Positions 43,999 to 52,759 of a DNA stretch of 64,000 nt are shown here, one piece after another. Every line of letters begins with the position of its first letter. Position 1 is the first letter of the stretch. Origin of the DNA: Saliphagus infecundisoli (lineage in GTDB: Archaea > Halobacteriota > Halobacteria > Halobacteriales > Natrialbaceae); contig NZ_JAIWHV010000006.1 of assembly GCF_020177375.1 (NCBI RefSeq), positions 1 to 64,000 of the forward strand. The letters run 5' to 3'. A model generated the notes under the pieces. That model made no database searches. It saw only the letters and a list, made by a program, of their open reading frames with translations, and had not been told where the DNA came from. The position numbers were made by a program, and so were the translations under genes.

Positions 43999-46515
43999 CT
44001 ACATCAGGTAGAAAAGCGGGAAGAGGAAGACCCAGACGATGTCGACGAAGTGCCAGTAGAGCCCGAAGAACTCCACGGGCCGGGAGTCCTCGAGATAGGC
44101 GTCGATCGAGATCACGCGATAGATCATGAAGACGGCGACGAAGAGGCCAAGCAGCACGTGGAGCCCGTGGAGGCCGGTCGTGACGAAATACATCGAGTAG
44201 TGGAGGTCGGTGAACCAGAAGATCCCGTGGCTGAACTCGTAGCTCCACTCGTAGGCCTTCACGCCCATGAACGTCAGTCCCAGCAGGACGGTGGTCCCGA
44301 GGGTGGCGAGCAGCCCCGTCTTGTTCTTCCGTTCGGCCATCACGAGCGCGAGGATGACCGTGAAACTCGACGTGAGCAGGATGTACGTGTTCAACAGGCC
44401 GAGCTGGGTGAACGGCGGCACGGGGTCCCAGCTACCCCAGCCCGCGTAGATCCGCATGAAGACGTACGCACCGATGAACGCGCCGAAGACCACGACGTCC
44501 GACGCCAGGAAGAACCAGACGCCGAGTTTCGTGTTGGCGACGTTCTCGAACGGCCACCGTTCGGCGATCGCCATCGTCGGCGCGGTAAAGCGCTCGCGGC
44601 CGAACTCGAAGAGCGTGTAGCCGAGCGTGGCGACCCCGACGACGGTGATCCCCGAGTAGAGGTAGCTCACGTTGGCCGTGAGCCCCGCGCTCTCGAAGTA
44701 CTCGGGGTCGAGCGATTCGACCAGCGCCGCGACCGTTCCCGTCATGCCCGAGGCGCCAAGCAGGGTGATGAACAGCCCCAGCCCGATGCCGAAGGGCCAG
44801 ATGCTCGCGTGATCGACGTGTTCCTCGGCGGTCGCGTGGTCGTGGCCGTGGTCGCGCTCGAGGGCGGCCCCGGCGTCGGCGGTCGCCATCGCGCCGCCGT
44901 CGGTGGTCGCACCGCCGTCGGTCGCCGGCGTGTCGTCGACGAACTCGAGGCGCCCGCTCGCATAGGAGGGGCGTCCGGGCCAGTTCTCGAGGGGTGGCGG
45001 CGAGGGGATCGCCCACTCGGCGGTCCGGGAGAACTCCCAGGGGTTATCGGGGGCGTCGGGACCGGAGACGAGGCTCTTCCCGAGGGTGTAGAACATGATG
45101 AGGAACGAACTCCCCAGGACGAACGCGCCGACGGTCGCCATCTGGTGGTAGATCTGCATGCCGTCGGCGTAGTGGAACACCCGGCGTGGGGTCTCCCAGG
45201 CGAGGAACATCGGGAAGTAAAGCAGGTTGAAGCCGACGAAGTAGACCGCGAAGTTGACCTTGCCCAGCAGCTCGTCGTACATCTTCCCGGTCATCTTCGG
45301 CCACCAGTAGTAGACCCCGCCGACCAGCGCGGTCACCCCCGAGACCATGACGTAGTGGAAGTGCGCGACGACCCAGTAGGTGCCCCGGAACTCGTAGTCG
45401 AGGACGACCGCGCCGAGGAACACGCCCGTAATGCCCCCGAGGATGAAGAGGACGAGCGCACCCAGGCTGAAGAGGAACGGGGTGGTAAAGCGGACGCGGC
45501 CCTTGACCATCGTGTAGATCAGCGAGAAGACCATCAGGTCGAACGGCAGCGAGATCCCGATCGTCGTCGCCATGAAGAGGGTCTTGATCTCCAGGTTGAT
45601 CGTCGTCAGGAACATGTGGTGCATCCAGACCAGGAAGGACTGCACCGCCACCAGGACCATCGCGATGATGACCCACTTCCGGCCGACGATCCGCCGACCC
45701 GTAAAGGTCTGGAACGTCTCGAACATGATCCCCAGCGCGGGGAAGAAGACGATGTACACCTCCGGATGGCCGAAGAACCAGAACAGGTGTGCCCACAACA
45801 GGCTCGAGCCCTGGTCGGTCACGAAGTACTGGGTCAGCAGGATCTTGTCGCTTACGAGCAAGAGCAAGGCCGCGAGGAGGGCCGCGAACGCAAACAGCAT
45901 CATCCAGACCGTAAGCAGCCACGACCAGCTGAAAAGCGGGACGTTCCAGAGGCCAAGCCCCTCCGCACGGGAGCGGTGCATCGTCGTCAGGAAGTTGACC
46001 GTCCCGACCGTGATCGAGGTGACGAACAGGAGTAACGCGACGATCGCTGCGGTTCCGCCCGTGGTCGCCTGAACGGCGGGCGTGTACATCGGGACGTTGA
46101 GCGGGGCGTACATCGTCCAGCCGCCCTCGAAGGACCCGCCCTGGAAGAAGGAGATCGCGAGCAGGACCCCCGAGAAGAGGTAGAACCAGTAGCTGAGCGC
46201 GTTCAGCCGGGGGAACGCGAGGTCCTTCGCGCCGATCTGGAGCGGGACGAGGTAGTTCGCAAAGCCCGTCGCGACCGGCGAGAGGAACCAGAACACCATC
46301 ACCAGCCCGTGGATGGAGACCGCCTGGTTGAAGCCGCTGTTCGAGAGGAGAGTCCCGCCCGGGCTCCAGAGCTGGACCCGGAAGAGCAAGGCGAGGACGC
46401 CCCCGAAGATCAGGAAGAAAAACGCGGTCACGAGATAGAGGATCCCGACGTCCTTGTGGTTGGTCGTCACCAGCCAGCGTTTGATCGACGTCCGCGGCGG
46501 GAAGTGCTCAGACAT
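43999..46515 (-). CDS. coxAC: Cytochrome c oxidase subunit I+III fusion
   Basis: 838 residues, a haem-copper oxidase subunit I (about 1-560) fused to subunit III (about 590-838). Subunit I has the CuB/haem ligands: WFFGHPEVYI near 245-253 (CuB His and Tyr), HHMF near 298, and AHFHYV near 385 (haem a3 and a ligands). The GHPEVY motif with Glu marks the A1 type. The linker (560-590) is acidic and His-rich near 600. The fusion is known in haloarchaea. It is coupled to coxB by a TGATG overlap, with coxB upstream. Confidence 0.96.
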   Translation of the reverse strand: MSEHFPPRTSIKRWLVTTNHKDVGILYLVTAFFFLIFGGVLALLFRVQLWSPGGTLLSNSGFNQAVSIHGLVMVFWFLSPVATGFANYLVPLQIGAKDLAFPRLNALSYWFYLFSGVLLAISFFQGGSFEGGWTMYAPLNVPMYTPAVQATTGGTAAIVALLLFVTSITVGTVNFLTTMHRSRAEGLGLWNVPLFSWSWLLTVWMMLFAFAALLAALLLLVSDKILLTQYFVTDQGSSLLWAHLFWFFGHPEVYIVFFPALGIMFETFQTFTGRRIVGRKWVIIAMVLVAVQSFLVWMHHMFLTTINLEIKTLFMATTIGISLPFDLMVFSLIYTMVKGRVRFTTPFLFSLGALVLFILGGITGVFLGAVVLDYEFRGTYWVVAHFHYVMVSGVTALVGGVYYWWPKMTGKMYDELLGKVNFAVYFVGFNLLYFPMFLAWETPRRVFHYADGMQIYHQMATVGAFVLGSSFLIMFYTLGKSLVSGPDAPDNPWEFSRTAEWAIPSPPPLENWPGRPSYASGRLEFVDDTPATDGGATTDGGAMATADAGAALERDHGHDHATAEEHVDHASIWPFGIGLGLFITLLGASGMTGTVAALVESLDPEYFESAGLTANVSYLYSGITVVGVATLGYTLFEFGRERFTAPTMAIAERWPFENVANTKLGVWFFLASDVVVFGAFIGAYVFMRIYAGWGSWDPVPPFTQLGLLNTYILLTSSFTVILALVMAERKNKTGLLATLGTTVLLGLTFMGVKAYEWSYEFSHGIFWFTDLHYSMYFVTTGLHGLHVLLGLFVAVFMIYRVISIDAYLEDSRPVEFFGLYWHFVDIVWVFLFPLFYLM

Positions 46516-47522
46516 CAGCTCTCACCCTCCTGGCCGGATTCGTCGTCGGCGTTGCCGTCGGTTTCGTTGTCCTCAGTGTCATTGTTTCCGTCGTCGCCAC
46601 TGGCGTCGGTACCGTTCGTGTCGCTTTCGTTGCCGGCGTTCGTTTCGTTGGCCGCGTCGGTCGCGTTGCCCCCGGCGCCGGCCGCGGAGCTCTCGTTCGC
46701 TCCGCTCTCGTTGCTCGCAGCGTCGGTACCGTTCGCACTGCTTTCGTTGCCCTCGGGGCCCGTTTGGGTGCCCGTGGCGCTCTCGTTGCCCCCACCGCTT
46801 TCGTTTCCGCCGCTGTTCGCCTGGGCTTCCTGTTCTGCCATCCACTCCTGGAAAGCCTCCTCTTCCATCACGGTGAGGTCGGCTTTCATGTTGGAGTGGC
46901 CGGCACCACAGAGCTCGAAGCACTCGATGGCGTCCTCGTGGGTCACGTTCTCTCCGTTCTCGGGCGCGTCGGCGATGAACCAGGTCTCGGAGTACTCGCC
47001 GGGGATCGCGTCGGCTTTCGCGCGTTGATCCGGTATGCCGAAGGCGTGCCAGACGTCGATCGACGTCACGTTCAGCTGGATCTCCCTGTCGGCGGGGACG
47101 ACGAGCTCGCCGTTGGACTCGACGCCGTTTTCGTACTGGAAGGTCCAGGAGAACGCCTGTCCCTCGACGTCGACGTTGAGCGCCTCCTCCTGGGCCTCGT
47201 CGCCCGGACCGGCCTCGACGTAGAGGAGCATCTGGTACGACCAGAAGACGAGCCCGAGCACGATGACGGCGCTCAGCCCGAACGAGAGGAAGAGCTTCCG
47301 CCCTCCCTTCCCCCCGGTCGGCAGTTCGCCGACGACCGGGAGGTCCTCGTCCTCGCCGTGGTTGCCGTCGTCGCGGTACTTGTAGGCGTTGTACAGCGTA
47401 TAGCTGACGACGACGATGCCGACGAGCGTCCCGAGTCCGAGAAAGAGGACGAAGATCTCGTTGAAGACGTCGACACGCGTCTGCTGTAACGGAGTGGTAA
47501 GTTGGGGAAGGATCGTGGTCAC
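46515..47522 (-). CDS. coxB: Cytochrome c oxidase subunit II
   Basis: 335 residues starting at GTG 47522. Two N-terminal membrane helices (about 25-47 and 78-102) anchor a cupredoxin domain with the CuA motif ECFELCGAGHSNM near 199-211 (Cys, Cys, His, Met) and the upstream His in DVWHAF. The last 90 residues are an Asn/Ser/Thr/Asp-rich tail with many N-x-S/T sequons (NES, NGT, NET). Such tails occur on haloarchaeal surface proteins and probably lie outside the cell. It is the first gene of the cox pair. Confidence 0.95.
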   Translation of the reverse strand: MTTILPQLTTPLQQTRVDVFNEIFVLFLGLGTLVGIVVVSYTLYNAYKYRDDGNHGEDEDLPVVGELPTGGKGGRKLFLSFGLSAVIVLGLVFWSYQMLLYVEAGPGDEAQEEALNVDVEGQAFSWTFQYENGVESNGELVVPADREIQLNVTSIDVWHAFGIPDQRAKADAIPGEYSETWFIADAPENGENVTHEDAIECFELCGAGHSNMKADLTVMEEEAFQEWMAEQEAQANSGGNESGGGNESATGTQTGPEGNESSANGTDAASNESGANESSAAGAGGNATDAANETNAGNESDTNGTDASGDDGNNDTEDNETDGNADDESGQEGES

Positions 47523-48533: not shown

Positions 48534-49169
48534 ATGGCACAGCCACGAATACTCATCCTCGGGCCCCCGGGAGCGGGCAAGGGGACACAAAGCGGCCGCC
48601 TCGTAGAGCACTTCGACATCGCCCACATCACGACCGGCGACGCGCTCCGGGCGAACAAGGGAATGGACATCAGCGACGTCCACGACGAGTACGACACCCC
48701 CGGCGAGATCATGGCCGCGGGCGAACTCGTCCCCGACGAAGTCGTCACCGCAATCGTCGAGGAAGCCCTCGCCGACGCCGACGGCTTCGTCCTCGACGGC
48801 TACCCGCGCAACATCGCCCAGGCAGAGGCCCTAGAGGGGATGACCGACCTCGACGTCGTCCTCAAACTCGACGTGAGCGAGGACGAACTCGTCCACCGCC
48901 TGACCGGCCGGCGGATCGACCCCGAAACCGACGAGGTCTACCACGTCGAGTACGACCCCGCCGAGGACGAGGAGGTCAAAGAGCGACTGGTCCAGCGCGA
49001 CGACGACACCGAGGAGACCGTCGTCGAGCGCCTCCGGGTCTACGAGGAGAACACGGCACCGGTCGTCGAGTACTACGACGAGAAGGGTTCCCTGGAACGG
49101 ATCGACGGCGACCGCGCGCCCGAGGAGGTCTGGACGGAGATCCGCGAGCGCGTCGAGAGTGCCGTCTAG
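48534..49169 (+). CDS. adk: Adenylate kinase
   Basis: 211 residues. P-loop GPPGAGKGT at 10-18, the AMP-binding [21 protein letters not shown] near 86-98, and a LID with [18 protein letters not shown] and no zinc cysteines. It interconverts ATP+AMP and 2 ADP. In many archaea adk precedes the DUF106, cmk and cbf5 genes; here a gene on the opposite strand lies between. Its last 4 nt overlap that gene. Confidence 0.97.
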
Positions 49170-51007
49170 TCGAGAACGATCTCGTGGGTGCGGACGTGGA
49201 CGTAGACCGTCAGCTCGTCGGTCGCGATGTTATCCATGTGGCCGTCCCAGTTGCCCGTCGGTGAGGTGGGCCCGGCGCTGCTGTCGCCGTGGAAGGTTAC
49301 GGTCCCGCTGGCGTCGAGTCCGCCGATGACGAAGGTTCCGTAGAAGTCGAGCGACCCGCTCGCGTCGAAGTCGGTGTCGGCCGACACCTCGTCGTGGGGC
49401 GCGTAGATCGAGCCGTAGTAGGCCCCGCCGCCGCTGAACCTGAAACTACTCCCGGTCGTGCCGAAGATCTGGAATCGGTTCGCCTCCCCTCCCGAGTTCG
49501 TCACGGCGCCGCCGGACATCGACACCGTACCGCTCGTGATCACCCGGACGACGTGGTCGTTTCCACTGGTGCCGGTCACCGTGATGTCCCCGTTCCCCGT
49601 CATGGATACGCCCCCGCCCGGACGGACCAGGATGTCGATGTCGCCGTCGCTGACGTCGAGTTCGAGGTCGCTGTTCCCGCCGATAGAGATTTCCCCGGCG
49701 AAGTACTGGCCAGCCTCGAGGTGATCGTCGCTCAGGGTGCCGACTTCGTCGCCCTCTCCCTGATCGAGGATCTGGTCATAGGCGCGGTCGATCGGCTCGT
49801 GTTCGGGGAGGTCGTCGAGTTCGTCGTTCGGATGGGGGCCGATCTCGCCGGGCGGGACGCCCTCTCTCACCTCGCAGTCGCCGACGCAGTAGCCGTTGTC
49901 GGTGATCGATCCGGCCGCGACGAGGTCACCGGCGTACGATTTGTCCCACCGGATCTCGATGTCGCCGTAGGAGACGACGCCGCCGTCGACGTGGCCGCCG
50001 ACGGTGACGTCCCCGCCCGCGAGGACGCTCCCGGCGTCGTCGTCGCCCGCGATGTCGACGCTCCCGGCCGCGATGATTCGGCCAGTGACCTCGCCGGAGT
50101 GGCTGACGCTCACGTCCCCGCCCGAGACGACGTCGCCGTAGATCGTGTGTCCGACGTCGACGTCCCCCGGCGAGACGACGTCGCCGCTCGTGTAGCTGTT
50201 TCCCGCCGTACTCGTCGAGATCGACCCCCCGGTCGCCGACAGGACGCTCGCACGATCGGAATTGAGGTTTACGTCCTCGATCTCCTGGGGAAGCTCGGAG
50301 ATGCCGACGATCACCTCGATGGTCCGGTACTCGCCGGTACCGCTGGTCTCGACGCTCGTGTTCCCCATCGATCGGAAGTATTCCGCCCAGCCGTTGTGAT
50401 AGGCTGTCGTGACGGAGATCTTGATGTTCTGGCTCTCGTCGACACCGCCAGTGAGTCCGGAGTGGTTCGAGGTGGTGTTGACCCCCGAGACCGCGACCCC
50501 GCTTCCTGAGGCCGAGCCGCCGCTCACGTTGAAGATCGGAAGCGTCAGCGTCCCGTCGGTGTACGTAATCGGCGGTCCCGAGACGGGCATCGATCGGTCG
50601 CCCGTTCCCCGCCAGACGCCGCCGCCCTCGTAGGCGACGACCGAGCCGTCGTCGTTGGTGTACTCGATCGCACCGAGGCTCTCGTTTGCGACTTCTCCTT
50701 TCCCTTCGATGGAGACGGTCATGTTCCCGCCGTCGACCTTGCGGATCGTTCCCTCGCTCGCGTCGATGTCGAGTTCCGTCGTGCCTCCGGCGTCGCTCGT
50801 CGCGGCGGCAGTCGCGATGTCCGTGCTGAGTTCGACGAACGCGCTCTCGACGCGATCGATCTCGGCCTGGCTCTCGATCCCGTCGGTTGTCGCGCCCGAA
50901 GCGAGCAGGATCGCGACGCTGCCGATCGCGACGATTCCGAACAGCAGGACGAACCCGAGGACCTCCGACTGGCCGCGTTCCTCGCTCACTCCGATCGCCC
51001 GGCGCAC
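49166..51007 (-). CDS. Surface-type protein: pilin-like N-terminus with polymer-forming (bactofilin-like) repeats
   Basis: 613 residues from GTG 51007. [23 protein letters not shown] (about 10-32) is the prepilin-like/TM N-terminus common in haloarchaeal DUF7289-type proteins. Residues 260-370 ([19 protein letters not shown], then GGDVSVS.., [23 protein letters not shown]) and 430-590 contain regular glycine-rich strand repeats like bactofilins/polymer-forming domains. A CVGDC pair lies near 380. Many N-x-S/T sequons are consistent with N-glycosylation outside the cell. It lies in reverse orientation between adk and the DUF106-cmk-cbf5 cluster. Function unknown; a pilus- or matrix-like role is inference. 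Confidence 0.75.
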
Positions 51008-51187
51008 CGTCTTCTCTCCATATTGCTGCTAGATATATCCGACACCGTGATATACTATTCGGTTGGTACGTGGACGGCGTCCCGCACTGGCGGCCGACGG
51101 GATCGGACTGGGGCCACGAACCGGCGTCCCGTCGCCGGCGCCCGAAGATAAACACTTGTATACTGGACGTGACCTAGCTTCGAGTAG

Positions 51188-52138
51188 ATGACGCGTACCG
51201 CGGAGAAGGTAGACTCCCTCGTCCGCGAGGACGCCGCGATGGCCGAGGCACTCGAGTCGATCCGCCGGGAGGCCGACCGCAACGGCGGCGAGGTCGAGTG
51301 GGCCGACGTCCGGGACGACCTCACTAGCGGCCAGTGGGGTCGAATCATCGAGACGGGGATCTTAGTCGACGGCCGTGACGGGTTCGAGATCGCCGACCGG
51401 GAGGCGTTCGATCGCGCCCTGGACGACGACGAGGAGGGGGTCGACGCCGACACTCCCGAGATCGACGACGACGCCTCCTCGTGGTCCCAGTGGGACAAAC
51501 TGGCCGGGCTGAGCGCCGTATTGTTGATGACCGGCTACTGGTTCGACTCCATCCGGAACCTCATCGGGGGAACGATCGACGTCGCGCTCGGGCCGCTCAA
51601 CGCCGCGCTCCCATTTTACGCGGTGATCCTCACGGTTGCGATGGTGACCGGGCTCTACTCGACGCTGCTGCAGGCGAACCTGATGAACCCCGAGCGGATG
51701 GGCAAATATCAAGAACGGATGAAGGCGATGCAGGAGAAACGAAAGGACGTCGAGGAGCGAAAGGAAGCCGCCGAGGAACGCGGGGCCAGCGAGTCCGAAC
51801 TCGAGCGACTCGACAACGAGATGGACCGCGTCCAAGAGGAGCAGATGGAGGCGATGGCCGAGAACCTCGGGATGTTCAAAGAACAGTTCCGTCCGATGGT
51901 CTGGATCATGCTGTTTACGATCCCGCTTTTCCTCTGGATGTGGTGGATGATCCGCGACGGCCACATCGCCAGCGACGAGCTCCAGGTCGTGATGCCGATC
52001 GCCGGCGTCGTCGAGTGGAACGACGGCGTCGTTGGCCCGATGCAAGCCTGGATCGTCTGGTACTTCCTCTGTTCGATGGGTTTCACCCAGTTGCTCCGGA
52101 AAGCCGTCAACATCGACATGTCGCCGGCGACCAGCTGA
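51188..52138 (+). CDS. DUF106 membrane protein (Oxa1/EMC3-like)
   Basis: 316 residues. The acidic N-terminal 95 residues include a winged-helix-like part (VREDAAMAEALESIRREADRNGG). The membrane part has helices at about 105-125, 135-160 and 235-258, plus a C-terminal helix, with a long coiled coil (175-225, ERMKAMQEKRKDVEERKEAAEE) between. This is the DUF106 arrangement related to YidC/Oxa1 and EMC3/TMCO1, insertases of membrane proteins. The gene is the first of a tight group with cmk and cbf5. Confidence 0.92.
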   Translation: MTRTAEKVDSLVREDAAMAEALESIRREADRNGGEVEWADVRDDLTSGQWGRIIETGILVDGRDGFEIADREAFDRALDDDEEGVDADTPEIDDDASSWSQWDKLAGLSAVLLMTGYWFDSIRNLIGGTIDVALGPLNAALPFYAVILTVAMVTGLYSTLLQANLMNPERMGKYQERMKAMQEKRKDVEERKEAAEERGASESELERLDNEMDRVQEEQMEAMAENLGMFKEQFRPMVWIMLFTIPLFLWMWWMIRDGHIASDELQVVMPIAGVVEWNDGVVGPMQAWIVWYFLCSMGFTQLLRKAVNIDMSPATS

Positions 52139-52186: not shown

Positions 52187-52759
52187 ATGTTACTCACCGT
52201 CTCCGGCCCGCCTGGAAGCGGGAAGAGCACCACCGCGGGGTTGCTCGCCGACGCCTTCGACCTCGAACACGTAAGCGGGGGCGACATCTTCCGCGAACTC
52301 GCCGACGAGCGGGGGTACACCCCCCTCGAGTTCAACAAGCTCGCCGAGGAAAACGAGGAGATCGACCGCGACCTGGATCGTCGGCTGGGTCGGATCGCCC
52401 GCGACCGCGACGACCTCGTCCTCGAGTCGCGGCTGGCGGGCTGGCTGGCGGGCGAACACGCCGACTTCCGGTTCTGGCTCGACGCGCCCGCGAGCGTCCG
52501 GGGCGAGCGGATCGCCGACCGCGAGGGCAAGGAGCCGGGGCCCGCGACGGAGGAGACCCGCGCACGGGAGGCCAGCGAGGCCAGCCGGTACGAGGACTAC
52601 TATGGAATCGACATCACCGACCTGAAGATATACGACCTTTCGGTGAACACCGGCCGGTGGGAGCCCGACGCCGTCCTCGACATGCTCGTGACCGCAGTCG
52701 AGGAGTACCACCCCGAAAAGGACGAGGGGAAGTACCCGATCACCGGCGTCGAGATCTGA
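52187..52759 (+). CDS. cmk: Cytidylate kinase
   Basis: 190 residues. P-loop GPPGSGKST at 7-15, '[16 protein letters not shown]' for nucleotide binding, and an R-rich C-terminal half ([21 protein letters not shown]) typical of archaeal Cmk, which is shorter than the bacterial enzyme. It phosphorylates CMP/dCMP. It overlaps the cbf5 start by 1 nt (TGATG) and lies 48 nt downstream of the DUF106 gene, so the three likely form an operon. Confidence 0.94.

Follow-up and report, generated by a model that had tools for sequence, protein, structure and literature searches.

Between adk and the gene run DUF106-cmk-cbf5 of Saliphagus infecundisoli lies a long gene in reverse orientation, which raises the questions of what kind of protein it encodes and whether it is an insertion or a shared feature of the family Natrialbaceae. 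The DNA analysed, called the window below, is a stretch of 64,000 nucleotides.

The adk/DUF106 junction and the 613-residue protein

The ORF is open throughout from 49166 to 51007 on the reverse strand, starts with GTG and encodes 613 residues. Full-length homologues from two other genera are 37–38% identical to the product over residues 6–612, and because they span the whole length the ORF is not a chance reading frame. Its position exactly between adk and DUF106-cmk-cbf5 agrees with the original prediction. The features of the locus are as follows.

48534..49169 (+): adk, adenylate kinase (flanking)
49166..51007 (−): whole gene for a DUF7289-(bactofilin-like)-DUF7305 modular pilin-like protein, 613 aa, GTG start
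49166..49169: CTAG, overlapping convergent stop codons of adk and the pilin-like gene
49172..49204 (−): predicted C-terminal beta-strand, residues 602–612 (model and comparison with long family members)
49280..49819 (−): DUF7305 (PF23981), residues 397–576, in which the predicted second beta-solenoid block is 419–573 (Pfam E 4e-27 and model)
49754..49858 (−): predicted short helical link between the solenoid blocks, residues 384–418 (AlphaFold model)
49859..50257 (−): predicted first beta-solenoid block, bactofilin-like, residues 251–383 (Pfam scan of the C-terminal part and model)
50345..50977 (−): DUF7289 (PF23960), residues 11–221, helix and all-beta head (Pfam match)
50801..50971 (−): hydrophobic N-terminal helix that continues as a long stalk helix, residues 13–69 (AlphaFold model)
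50972..51007 (−): prepilin leader, residues 1–12, ending R11 G12 before Q13 (charged −2, G −1)
51008..51187: divergent intergenic region of 180 bp between the pilin-like gene and DUF106
51188..52138 (+): DUF106 / EMC3-TMCO1-like membrane protein (flanking)
52187..52759 (+): cmk, cytidylate kinase-like (flanking)
After cmk, to 53661: cbf5/TruB-like gene

TATA-like stretches, read by eye and without statistics, are present upstream of both starts (GGATATATC for the pilin-like gene and TTGTATACT for DUF106). An Rfam search around the locus gave no match, and neither pilB nor pilC is among the neighbours of this gene copy. The adk/DUF106 position says nothing of a link to adenylate kinase. Elsewhere in the window, an 838-aa ORF (43999–46515) appears by eye to read in a single frame as cytochrome oxidase subunit I and then a part resembling subunit III, and it is adjoined by an ORF (46515–47522) that looks subunit II-like and has an Asn/Gly/Glu-rich tail.

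The N-terminus of the 613-residue protein carries an archaeal prepilin signal, RG/QS, followed by a hydrophobic stretch, and R11 is invariant in 47 homologues. Archaeal pilin leaders are recognised by a charged residue at −2, G, A or S at −1 and a hydrophobic helix directly after the site (PMC4371748); the leader examined here has R11 and G12 at these positions, with the hydrophobic helix following Q13. In Pfam, DUF7289 matched residues 11–221 with 110.4 bits (E 1.3e-31), and DUF7305 matched with 95.8 bits (E 4e-27) when the C-terminal part was scanned alone, both above the gathering cut-off, which is 27 bits for either family. DUF7305 was absent from the Pfam output for the whole protein and was recovered by the genome search. 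The match to Bactofilin (PF04519) stayed below its cut-off of 27.9 bits, at 19.9 bits for the whole protein and 23.7 bits (E 5.7e-5) for the C-terminal part alone, and membership in that family was rejected on score. Pfam Ice_binding (PF11999) gave no match in the whole protein up to E 1 or in the C-terminal part up to E 10. The protein has 96 D/E and 23 K/R residues, haloarchaeal proteins being acidic in general, and six N-glycosylation sequons, all in the head and in no excess over shuffled sequences (p 0.17). The literature library searched contained no paper naming DUF7289 or DUF7305.

Predicted fold and the systems it resembles

An AlphaFold model built with 47 homologues as input reached a mean pLDDT of 81. 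It places a helix at residues 13–69, a beta head at 76–235, a beta-solenoid at 253–382, a helical link at 386–416, a second solenoid block at 420–573 and a terminal strand at 602–612. The original prediction had described a prepilin-type helix and two blocks of polymer-forming repeats, and had allowed that the repeats might not be beta-helical. The description holds up well: alongside the RG/Q leader and the long helix, both repeat blocks are modelled confidently as beta-solenoid, a fold that, judging from the model, they very probably adopt.

Structural alignment of the solenoid with DUF3494-type ice-binding proteins gave Z scores of about 16.5 over about 199 residues at 2.7–2.8 Å, the best matches reaching Z 16.6 and FfIBP (4nu2) Z 16.5; the top structural matches were mostly ice-binding proteins. 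ComZ (6qvi) aligned with model residues 251–584 (Z 16.1, 238 residues, 3.4 Å), and the tapirins 4wa0 and 6n2b aligned with the solenoid at Z 15–15.9. The bactofilin subunit 6rib aligned over block 1 only (residues 282–383, Z 8.1); block 2 and the helical link resemble the plan of ice-binding proteins and ComZ, not that of bactofilin. The solenoid fold of ice-binding proteins is widespread and serves many purposes, so that sharing it shows no function. Foldseek alone found no match to the model under E 0.001, and a PDB sequence search with the family alignment found none at E 1. A short DUF7289 paralogue from the same genome was modelled at pLDDT 90, and a fold search of the DUF7289 head against the PDB gave no clear match, a Thermus type IV-like pilin appearing at Z 2.2 only.

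A similar design is known from ComZ of Thermus thermophilus, a tip pilin with a solenoid that binds DNA (PMC6561018). Both proteins join a pilin-like N-terminal domain to a large solenoid of the ice-binding-protein type, with a helical stretch between parts, but the likeness is one of predicted fold and not of demonstrated sequence relation. In ComZ the solenoid is inserted ahead of the final head strand, directly after the penultimate one. A strand after the solenoid would fit such a plan, and a similar terminal strand lies a few residues from the C-terminus in nearly all long family members, whatever module they carry; mean-field coevolution analysis for its partner (133 long proteins, effective number 96) gave no diagonal that stood out, the best value being 2.7. 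We dropped the idea that the last strand of the short proteins corresponds to the C-terminal strand of the long ones; the end of the Pfam profile reaches the pre-module strand in several long members.

The tapirins of Caldicellulosiruptor are adhesins. They share a beta-helical C-terminal domain with the protein examined here, but they are bacterial, lack DUF7289 and have no demonstrated relation to it in sequence. Block 1 likewise resembles the bactofilin beta-helix, but a prepilin leader and a score below the family cut-off set the protein apart from bactofilins, and most of its relatives lack the block. A modular pilin is also known in bacteria from PilB of Streptococcus sanguinis (PMC8179133). 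It too is a pilin onto which a bulky module has been grafted, and some of the archaeal genes at the adk/DUF106 junction carry vWA; its head belongs to another pilin family and its host to another domain of life, and the 613-residue copy bears a solenoid, not vWA. In archaea, Makarova et al. (2016) described a pilin family of euryarchaeal pilB-pilC operons, 250–550 aa long and prone to duplication, and proposed it to be a minor pilin (PMC4858521). DUF7289 is probably this arCOG02911 family, an identification made by description only: it shares the variable length, the tendency to duplicate and the membership in pilB-pilC operons. The copy studied here differs in being long, solenoid-bearing and away from the operon.

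Distribution and origin of the junction genes

DUF7289 is present in 124 of 125 Natrialbaceae genomes, with 1–9 copies each. We compared the sequence upstream of DUF106 between 60 Natrialbaceae genomes (27 genera besides Saliphagus) and 40 genomes from other haloarchaeal families. Of the 60, 46 had one to five DUF7289 genes there at the adk junction, with few exceptions in the orientation opposite to that of DUF106; none of the 40 had any. In the other families adk ended less than 300 bp from DUF106 in 32 of 40 genomes (median gap 105 bp), which bears out the earlier statement that the two genes are usually contiguous. The view of the gene as an insertion stood only in so far as it splits the cluster relative to other haloarchaea; it is not peculiar to this genome, and finding it at the same site in many genomes is the result that had been named in advance as speaking against an insertion. 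Natrialbaceae share the gene as an old feature; it is neither a peculiarity of one strain nor a recent arrival.

Fourteen of the 60 genomes had no DUF7289 gene upstream of DUF106. Four of these (G034, G030, G032 and G033) keep the array beside adk and have DUF106 elsewhere, and in the remaining 10 adk abuts DUF106. DUF7305 was not found anywhere in six core-family genomes lacking the junction array (G018, G019, G021, G037, G088 and G089), and its absence genome-wide suggests that it was lost and did not simply change position. On the DUF106 tree, the junction-array label needs 6 changes against 17 in shuffles, a pattern compatible with one gain on the core Natrialbaceae stem and several losses. 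In loci L290–L294 the pilin array has remained next to adk and DUF106-cmk lies elsewhere, the break in the cluster being on the side of the array away from adk. Many Natrialbaceae genomes also have a second DUF106/EMC3 paralogue elsewhere, about 50% identical (for example on G054:C63 and G042:C39).

The short DUF7289 paralogue lies on another contig at the end of the run pilB (PilB3_C)-pilC-DUF7287-DUF7288-DUF7261-like-DUF7266-DUF7289. The genome encodes a protein of the prepilin peptidase family Peptidase_A24 and two T2SSE-type ATPases, one of which belongs to this locus, the one clear pilB-pilC locus of the genome. Outside Natrialbaceae, a long DUF7289-DUF7305 gene adjoins the same pilus operon, usually convergently, in 9 of 14 loci, a rate based solely on loci hand-picked, not drawn at random, from class-level DUF7305 matches; other named loci were left out of it because they had been chosen by similarity and had short flanks. 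The linked long gene also occurs in many named genomes, such as those of Haloarcula, Halorubrum, Haladaptatus and Halomarina. The genomic link used as a criterion for type IV pilins is thus found for the short paralogue and for long homologues elsewhere. The copy examined here is unlinked, and its tie to a pilus is weakened by its probable relocation away from the pilus operon.

In a tree of the heads the junction copies fell in one clade (SH-aLRT 100), outside which the pilus-linked copies formed a grade. One relocation followed by tandem duplication is the simplest reading. That the move went from operon to junction is suggested by the pilus-linked position being the more widespread of the two. 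The most likely history is one old relocation of a pilus-linked gene, which would have taken place on the stem of core Natrialbaceae, followed at the junction by tandem duplication, module swaps and some losses. The junction clade also includes a few copies from other places (for example L308, L259 and L269). L308, from genome G149 of another family, has a solenoid-DUF7289 gene 45% identical to that of L116; neither adk, DUF106 nor pilB-pilC lies alongside within its 18-kb stretch, and transfer or an intermediate position is possible.

A candidate modular minor type IV pilin

Mean identity falls from 55% in the helix (residues 11–45) to 42% in the head and 18–31% in the solenoid, a gradient that would be expected if a conserved portion served assembly and carried an exposed portion free to vary. 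In sister genes of this junction, vWA or CARDB/Ig-like domains take the place of the solenoid; among the longer genes of alignment A2 (n = 19), 8 have vWA and 6 have CARDB-type domains. All 47 junction members match DUF7289, and 41 of them have no bactofilin match at 0.01, one relative (L110, 5580–7835) passing the Pfam bactofilin cut-off with 44 bits.

We assign a probability of about 0.68 to the combined reading that the gene encodes a minor type IV pilin of modular build, and that the beta-solenoid it displays is probably adhesive and located at the tip. Taken separately, its being a pilin-type protein of a pilus system is highly likely, and adhesion at the pilus tip has about an even chance. 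Prepilin peptidase would cut the leader and the helix would pack into a type IV pilus built by PilB and PilC. The bulky, fast-diverging solenoid would be displayed on the surface of the pilus or at its tip and might there bind a polysaccharide, a surface or another cell.

The protein might instead be a membrane-anchored surface adhesin, its leader processed and its helix holding the solenoid to the cell without ever being assembled into a pilus. Such an anchor would suit the removal of the gene from pilB-pilC in Natrialbaceae, the very long stalk helix and the head for which the PDB offers no pilin match, but the same type of gene adjoins the pilus operon in other families and the short paralogue lies inside it, and we consider an anchored adhesin rather improbable. 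Given the same linkage, the original prediction of a filament or lattice unlike ordinary pili is not supported. Nucleotide-free self-polymerisation into filaments is expected of bactofilins, and a self-polymerising surface lattice of that kind could draw on the weak match of block 1, on the alignment with 6rib, a bactofilin filament subunit, and on the L110 relative. However, the score of the protein itself, the predominance of junction members with DUF7289 and no bactofilin match, and the ice-binding-protein/ComZ plan of block 2 and the link all stand against it, making a bactofilin-like lattice very unlikely.

The chance is similarly slim that the protein is a DNA receptor at the tip of a competence-like pilus: the solenoid fold is that of the DNA-binding ComZ, but this fold is widespread, competence genes are absent nearby and the protein is strongly acidic, as haloarchaeal proteins generally are. 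A mobile element that had recently carried in a surface gene would explain how a cluster contiguous in most outside genomes came to be split. Such an insertion is hardly credible for a gene that belongs to one clade and keeps nearly always the same strand, and the gene-length ORFs inspected at the junction include none of transposase type. The presence of the gene at the same place in most of the sampled Natrialbaceae led us to reject a recent insertion.

The modular minor pilin reading would give DUF7289 and DUF7305, both Pfam families without a known function, a role that can be tested. It also suggests that archaeal pili follow the modular-pilin principle seen in bacteria, with the ComZ solenoid and the S. 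sanguinis PilB vWA module. The locus is uncharacterised but ordinary for Natrialbaceae, and its product would be of a kind already known. A broader proposal is that haloarchaea have a ComZ-like design, in which a DUF7289 chassis takes solenoid, vWA or Ig-like modules before a conserved terminal strand, and that the junction is a dedicated Natrialbaceae site for storing and swapping pilus-tip modules; we offer it tentatively, as a rather unlikely possibility. Further DUF7289 proteins of 1000–1550 aa are encoded at junction loci L111, L112, L150, L161 and L155, with C-terminal parts that are mostly unassigned or Ig-like.
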